Positions 61,987-63,509 of a stretch of DNA of 64,000 bases are shown here, piece by piece. Where the stretch lies: assembly GCA_022822005.1 (NCBI GenBank), contig JAJECO010000016.1, forward strand, positions 1 through 64,000. The letters are read 5' to 3'. Every line of letters starts with the position of its first letter. The stretch's first letter is position 1. The position numbers were made by a program, and so were the translations under genes. Source of the stretch: Candidatus Poribacteria bacterium (GTDB taxonomy: Bacteria; Poribacteria; WGA-4E; PCPOR2b). Below the pieces are notes generated by a model that was not told where the DNA came from, made no database searches, and worked only from the letters and a program-made list of their open reading frames with translations.

Positions 61987-62066
61987 ATTGCTAACTTCGC
62001 GAAAAAAAGTGCCAAAAAAATCTCGGAACTGCATCTTGATAAGGTGTAAGGGAGAAATGAAGATCC

Positions 62067-63509
62067 ATGGCTAAGGAAAATACGCTCATCTATCGTGCCC
62101 AAACTGGGGATGAAGAGGCTTTTGCTGATCTGATGCGGGAGTACTACGCCTATGTCTATGCAATCGTAGGCGAGATCGTGGATAATGCCCATGACGCCGA
62201 AGAGGTGGTGCAAGACGCCTTCTTCAACGCCTATCAAGGATTAGGTCAGCTTGAGGATGCGACTAAATTCAAGAGCTGGTTGGCTGAGATTACGCGGAAT
62301 TGTGCACGTCAGTGGCTCCGAAAACAGAGACATGAAACTGTATCCATCAACGAAGTGAGTGAACAGATGCTTCAAACGGAGGACTCACTTGATGAGCAAT
62401 TGACGCAGCTGGAACAGAGAGAACTGATTCGCCGGACAATCGAGACACTTCCGCAGAAAGACAGGGAGCTTGTCCGTGCTTTCTATCTGGAGGGTGCGAG
62501 TTACGACGAACTGACAAACACACATGGGATGTCATATAACGCAATTGCGTCTCGGTTGTCGCGTGCGAAGCGGCAACTCTCCAAACGGTTGCAATCCCTT
62601 CTTACTGGCATCTTCGTTTCTCCCGGGTTGACACTAAAAAAGATATACTCAGGAGGACTAACTGCCATGAAAGTTGGAACGGCACCTAAGATAACAGTTG
62701 GTGTAGCAGCACTGATTGCGCTGATTTTTATCGGTTTTGTCGGTATCCGCCAGATGCGCGCGCCCATAATCGAGGAGCGGGTGTATTTGTCACCGTGGGA
62801 GGATGGCACTCCACGTCCACGAAACAACTCCGAAGGATTAGCAGCACAAACTGATTCCGCTCCAAATACAGAAAACAGGGACAATCCGTCACAAATTGCC
62901 GTCACAGACTCCGGAGAAGGGATAGAGTCGGTTGACAATTCCTTGAGTCAACCTGACGAAGCAGATATAGCACAATTCATGCTGGAGGTGGAATTTGAGC
63001 CAGAGGCGGACCAGAGTCTCTCCACCGATACCTCTACGTTATTAGACGACGAGGGTCGGTCTGCCGAAGATGTGATGAACGCCTATCTGGAGGCGTATAA
63101 GAATCTCAACTTTAAGGCAGCACTCCCACTAGTGACAGGAGCTGTCAGGGAAGATATAGAAAGTAGTATCCCAGCCTTAGAAAATGCGAGGGCAGAAATC
63201 GCTGAAGCAGGACCGGAGGCCAAGCAGTTCACTGAGGAAATATTAAGCCGAACAATTGGTAGGGCAGAAATTGTGAGCAGCGAATATGTCGGCGATGAAT
63301 GGCACTTCCGATTGAGAGAACCGGAACTACAGTTCAGAGACCTGATAGGAATGGTAATACAGAATTTATCGGAAGAACAACAAGCGGCAGCGTTAGCGGA
63401 AATTCCGAGGGCAGAAATGGAGAACACACCGGCAGCATCAGATATACTTATTAAGATGCGAAAAGAGAATGGGGCTTGGCGAATTTATGAATCTGGCAAT
63501 GCAAACTAA
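62067..63509 (+). CDS. ECF sigma factor fused to a membrane segment and exported domain
   Basis: 480 residues. Sigma region 2 (about 6-85: DEEAFADLMREYYAYVYAIVGE, DAEEVVQDAFFNAY, FKSWLAEITRNCARQWL). Sigma region 4 (about 118-175: ETLPQKDRELVRAFYLEGASYDELTN, NAIASRLSRAKRQLSKRL). A transmembrane helix at 208-227. Then about 250 acidic exported residues, with a domain at 355-475 (AEDVMNAYLEAYKNLNFKAALPLVTG). Normally an anti-sigma protein provides the membrane part. An AGGAGG (62651-62656) and ATG (62667, residue 201) sit in frame just before the transmembrane helix, so a shorter membrane product may also be made. Confidence 0.85.
   Translation: MAKENTLIYRAQTGDEEAFADLMREYYAYVYAIVGEIVDNAHDAEEVVQDAFFNAYQGLGQLEDATKFKSWLAEITRNCARQWLRKQRHETVSINEVSEQMLQTEDSLDEQLTQLEQRELIRRTIETLPQKDRELVRAFYLEGASYDELTNTHGMSYNAIASRLSRAKRQLSKRLQSLLTGIFVSPGLTLKKIYSGGLTAMKVGTAPKITVGVAALIALIFIGFVGIRQMRAPIIEERVYLSPWEDGTPRPRNNSEGLAAQTDSAPNTENRDNPSQIAVTDSGEGIESVDNSLSQPDEADIAQFMLEVEFEPEADQSLSTDTSTLLDDEGRSAEDVMNAYLEAYKNLNFKAALPLVTGAVREDIESSIPALENARAEIAEAGPEAKQFTEEILSRTIGRAEIVSSEYVGDEWHFRLREPELQFRDLIGMVIQNLSEEQQAAALAEIPRAEMENTPAASDILIKMRKENGAWRIYESGNAN
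62651..62669 (+). promoter_or_regulatory. Internal ribosome site and ATG within the sigma-factor gene
   Basis: AGGAGG lies 10 bp before an in-frame ATG (residue 201 of the fusion). Translation from here would give a 280-residue product that begins MKVGTAPKITVGVAALIALI, a membrane-anchored protein without sigma domains. Stronger than the site at the main start (GGGAG). Confidence 0.5.

Follow-up and report, generated by a model that had tools for sequence, protein, structure and literature searches.

A poribacterial ECF sigma factor joined to a membrane helix and an exported NTF2-like domain, with a conserved internal ribosome site that may give a second protein

The 64-kb stretch of DNA analysed here (the window) comes from a sponge-associated Candidatus Poribacteria bacterium and carries on its forward strand, as are all window features given below, an open reading frame (62067..63509, ATG to TAA) whose 480-aa product combines regions 2 and 4 of an ECF sigma factor with a single membrane helix, then a probably disordered segment and lastly an exported NTF2-like domain, as judged from sequence, Pfam and structural models. 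A likely ribosome site for the full-length start, AAGGGAG (62048..62054), can be read 12 bases before the ATG at 62067, and a similar GGGAGGA occupies this position in most other family members of the genome. The main start is overlapped by a five-codon out-of-frame ORF (62057-62074, ATG AAG ATC CAT GGC TAA), similar to one in the paralogue L002 and possibly due to chance. Sigma-70 region 2 (residues 22-88, 62130..62330; Pfam PF04542 Sigma70_r2, E 2.8e-13) and region 4 (residues 119-171, 62421..62579; PF08281 Sigma70_r4_2, E 6.8e-10) are separated by 30 residues, and with these two regions only, and no region 1.1 or 3, the protein classifies as an ECF (group 4) sigma factor. The best fold matches of the sigma part are sigmaE, AlgU and SigW, with E. 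coli sigmaE ranking top structurally. The ORF adjoins one gene resembling a sugar isomerase and another for a small lipoprotein-like product; we recognised no anti-sigma gene next to it.

Pfam gives no match C-terminal of the sigma regions in the 480-aa protein. A membrane helix is predicted at residues about 209-227 (62691..62747), where the most hydrophobic 19-residue window begins at about residue 209 (Kyte-Doolittle mean 2.73) and where the low-confidence full-length model places a helix at 208-229. The approximately 95 residues that follow have low model confidence and are probably disordered. The full-length model is weak (pLDDT 59.9), and the exported fold was judged from a model of the domain alone (residues 325-480, 63039..63506; pLDDT 86.9), which matches mostly NTF2-like folds, if weakly (best E 2.9e-3); some relatives also touch DUF3828 and NTF2-like Pfam models. 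Its placement outside the cytoplasm is supported by a sister genus, in which the same domain (L238:7112-7726) sits behind a lipoprotein-type signal, LLITGCSLG. It also ends another long fusion ORF (L238:10127-10621), and its occurrence both as a lipoprotein and in a further fusion marks it as a mobile module. The ORF, Pfam, the hydrophobicity profile and the domain model thus bear out the sequence-only reading in its claim that sigma regions 2 and 4, a transmembrane helix and an exported domain are joined in one chain.

Equally borne out is the presence, just before the helix, of an internal AGGAGG (62651..62656) and, ten bases further on, an in-frame ATG at codon 201 (62667..62669). When scored by its pairing with the anti-Shine-Dalgarno sequence, this site reaches -10.3 kcal/mol, and we considered sites of -9 kcal/mol or better as strong. 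Within the window, 3.6% of the 276 internal in-frame ATGs of long ORFs have a strong site and 2.2% reach the value found at 62667, compared to 26% of the first ATGs of long ORFs at the -9 kcal/mol level. The site and ATG at 62667 are thus more than chance.

To establish how far this arrangement is shared, we compared 144 distinct Poribacteria sigma ORFs, from mostly metagenome-assembled genomes, of which 118 have a helix after the sigma part. Two families were assigned without use of the site: the relatives of ORF 62067-63509 (the window family, 31 distinct genes) and a second family of sigma-TM-WD40 proteins (56 genes). All 31 genes of the window family have the ATG, and 23 of them have a strong site, against an expectation of 12.0 and a maximum of 20 in 1000 trials of synonymous codon resampling; in the second family, 53 of 56 members have a strong site against an expected 8.6 (maximum 19), although shared ancestry of sequences and paralogues remains in both counts. 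Equal-length segments elsewhere in the same ORFs, grouped according to our first, motif-based family definitions, reach the strong-site level in 2-5% of cases (11% in one small family). The lone second-family member that lacks the start codon (ATC for ATG) is one of the three with a weak site. The proposed check on relatives, for loss of AGGAGG or ATG, gives a mixed picture, with the ATG kept throughout, a strong site in 23/31, GGAGG in 21/31 and exact AGGAGG in 13/31. Counting against the internal start, 8 of the 31 window-family sites are weak, and the internal start is therefore weakened in some copies. Three of four families have less RNA folding around the internal start than at control positions; the exception, the C branch, where folding is not reduced, also counts against it.

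The close named relatives of the 480-aa protein are all Candidatus Poribacteria. The genome itself holds eight family members: ORF 62067-63509, a cluster of four on a single contig, two more that share another contig, and one located elsewhere; other genomes of the genus hold from none to about ten each; a likely orthologue, L042, has 82% identity. The phylum as a whole abounds in sigma factors with long fused C-terminal parts, often in arrays; such fusions are almost absent (3 long tails) from the sigma loci examined from other phyla. In the window's genome, other sigma-TM fusions end in DUF4159 or in repeated carboxypeptidase-regulatory-like domains (L011:1232-3394 and L033:9874-13647). In a 799-aa ORF (L098:7813-10209), sigma regions 2 and 4 are fused to thioredoxin-like, TPR and WD40-like propeller domains, and a strong site with an ATG lies directly after sigma. 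Two wider-clade relatives of the 480-aa protein, L101:10012-11646, joined directly to WD40 repeats, and L175 (minus strand), have no membrane helix, and here the internal site is weaker (-6.6 and -7.9 kcal/mol, respectively).

Two natural experiments bear on the internal start. The sister genus (G002) has a sigma-less membrane protein of 269 aa (L238:5532-6341) that begins exactly at the homologous methionine, preceded by TCAGGAGAAATT-ATGAAATTTGGAACG, where 62067-63509 has TCAGGAGGACTAACTGCC-ATGAAAGTTGGAACG; the two sites are similar. The corresponding product in the window would be a 280-aa membrane part (62667..63509). Secondly, PurC (SAICAR synthetase) takes the place of the helix and exported domain at one conserved locus, just after the internal start, in G000 (L008/L041, G000:C58:210148-211653) and G004 (L054/L247, G004:C6), while G007 retains the membrane version (L061). 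From the internal ATG of the G000 fusion to its PurC core, no further ATG, GTG or TTG occurs, and in G004 (an 88% complete assembly) the fusion is the only purC found. A different sigma is joined in frame to PurC in G005 (L250:886-2343, G005:C24), so that two different sigma types are involved. These swaps support internal initiation, as far as gene layout can, but fall short of proof, because PurC could be produced solely as a fusion. Two further candidates were not counted: the broken copies L241 and L242 (G005), considered as a natural two-gene version, look like frame disruption, and L211, potentially a stand-alone membrane gene from the WD40 family, is truncated at the end of its locus and shows no clear site.

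The main competing explanation is that the Shine-Dalgarno-like stretch pauses the elongating ribosome for targeting of the membrane helix, with no second protein being made. Such elements do slow the translation of membrane proteins in E. coli and aid their folding (PMC4359368), and the site here precedes the only helix. A start codon would, however, be superfluous for pausing, but all main branches retain an in-frame ATG or GTG at 5-10 bases; the published pauses (PMC4359368) occur within codons 16-60 or ahead of a second helix, whereas the site here lies at codon 200 and ahead of a first one; and sigma-PurC and sigma-thioredoxin fusions retain the site with no helix behind it. Pausing thus fits less well than an internal start, and we regard it as improbable.

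One could also speculate that the site is a by-product of a functional peptide motif (SGGLTAMK or KKEEPM), with incidental codon choice. Met-Lys-x-Gly is indeed invariant in the aligned window family, and since Gly-Gly is always encoded by GGNGGN, strong sites would be expected in 12 of 31 anyway. Observed strong sites nevertheless exceed the synonymous expectation about twofold in the window family and sixfold in the second family. In the second family, the first codon of the site, which encodes Lys, Glu or Gln, nonetheless has G as its third base in 59/59 rows, and the next Glu codon is GAG in 55/59 rows compared to 38% overall in these genes, while most codons flanking the site vary freely. 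Among the window-family rows of the first, motif-based set, 27/29 have GGA at the Gly codon where the site requires it, and the following Gly codon, whose last base falls outside the site, is unconstrained. Between branches the peptide changes while site and start persist: three further branches keep a site with ATG or GTG at different peptides and spacings, and where the start residue is Val, it is encoded by GTG in 4/4 cases. In these alignments, the pattern of constraint has the shape of a ribosome site, and an in-frame site and start codon are conserved beyond the needs of the protein; we consider a pure peptide motif slightly less probable than pausing. The least probable alternative is a relic, in which two once separate, overlapping cistrons lost the intervening stop codon and left a disused ribosome site: of 66 stand-alone sigma ORFs from other phyla, 26 have, close to their stop, a downstream start with a site, which in 20 of these 26 lies at or inside the sigma end and offers a plausible ancestor, and some window-family sites are weak, but a relic should drift at synonymous positions, where the flanking ones have drifted and those of the site have not, and the second family keeps a strong site in 53/56.

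We return to internal initiation, as part of a model to which we assign a probability of roughly 0.7 on the present comparisons: two proteins from one frame, with a tethered sigma that would be freed by proteolysis and a short form that would set the response. The start at 62067 would give an ECF sigma tethered by its own helix and carrying the exported NTF2-like domain as a sensor, and the start at 62667, via AGGAGG and ATG, the membrane-sensor part alone. That the latter is used appears quite likely, and both proteins would then accumulate; the suggestion that the membrane part is also made on its own gains here from the DNA-level selection that the internal start is under across relatives. 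The tethered sigma would most likely be kept inactive and released by signal-driven proteolysis, modelled by analogy on IutY (see below), although for this component we put the odds a little short of even. The sigma-less copy may pair or compete with the full-length form and so set the amount of tethered sigma able to respond. This is the simplest role for the short form, but as a ratio-setting device it is rather doubtful, and the cell may instead simply require sensor in excess of sigma. The original proposal of a ratio control between free and membrane-held sigma finds no support in that form: what the internal start gives is a membrane part lacking sigma, so by itself it yields no free sigma. 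The ratio that the short form could set is that of tethered sigma to sigma-less membrane part.

If both products are made, annotation as a single fused protein overlooks a second product of many genes per genome, and a fused sigma could be tuned by a sigma-less copy of its own sensor, without a separate anti-sigma gene. It would also suggest an origin for sigma-membrane fusions, by loss of a stop codon with retention of the second gene's ribosome site. The layout of a fused sigma with an internal start recurs in dozens of related genes, and the odds seem to us evenly balanced that it represents a phylum-wide two-product architecture, in which sigma is in frame with exchangeable modules (NTF2-like or WD40 membrane sensors, thioredoxin-TPR-propeller, PurC) swapped at an internal start behind a selected ribosome site.

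Sigma-membrane fusions and internal starts are each known separately; for their combination, we found no report in the open-access papers searched. In IutY (ECF243) of Pseudomonas putida, sigma is fused to a membrane anti-sigma and released by proteolysis, and deletion of most of the extension activates sigma (PMC8999054). The 480-aa protein likewise carries its membrane part on the sigma chain, and the C-terminal part is periplasmic in IutY and exported here. Unlike IutY, whose membrane part is the anti-sigma of iron cell-surface signalling, it has an NTF2-like domain, no recognised anti-sigma domain and a conserved internal start; by Pfam, its C-terminal part shows no homology to the anti-sigma of cell-surface signalling. 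The actinobacterial ECF48, ECF52 and ECF53 also have a C-terminal helix and exported extension after sigma, but with a zinc-finger anti-sigma domain before the helix (PMC8999054), whereas residues 172-208 here contain neither Cys nor His. ECF57, with its WD40-like C-terminal extensions (PMC8999054), resembles the second Poribacteria family (WD40 match in L221) rather than the 480-aa protein, which has no WD40 match in Pfam; that review mentions no internal start for ECF57. ECF41 and ECF56 share an NTF2-type fold on the sigma chain, but in them a fused SnoaL_2 domain follows sigma directly with no membrane helix (PMC3426412, PMC7730460); here, the helix at about 209-227 intervenes, the domain is predicted to lie outside, and it is NTF2-like by structure only, with no SnoaL_2 match. 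The closest parallel for the internal start is Cas11, an internal-start product within cas8 that in relatives is also a separate gene or a fusion; the internal start for Cas11 of Thermotoga is silent in E. coli (PMC13199841). The proteins are unrelated, and the short Cas11 product has been reported for related CRISPR subtypes whereas ours is predicted from sequence, but in both cases a C-terminal part would be available separately by way of an in-frame internal start.
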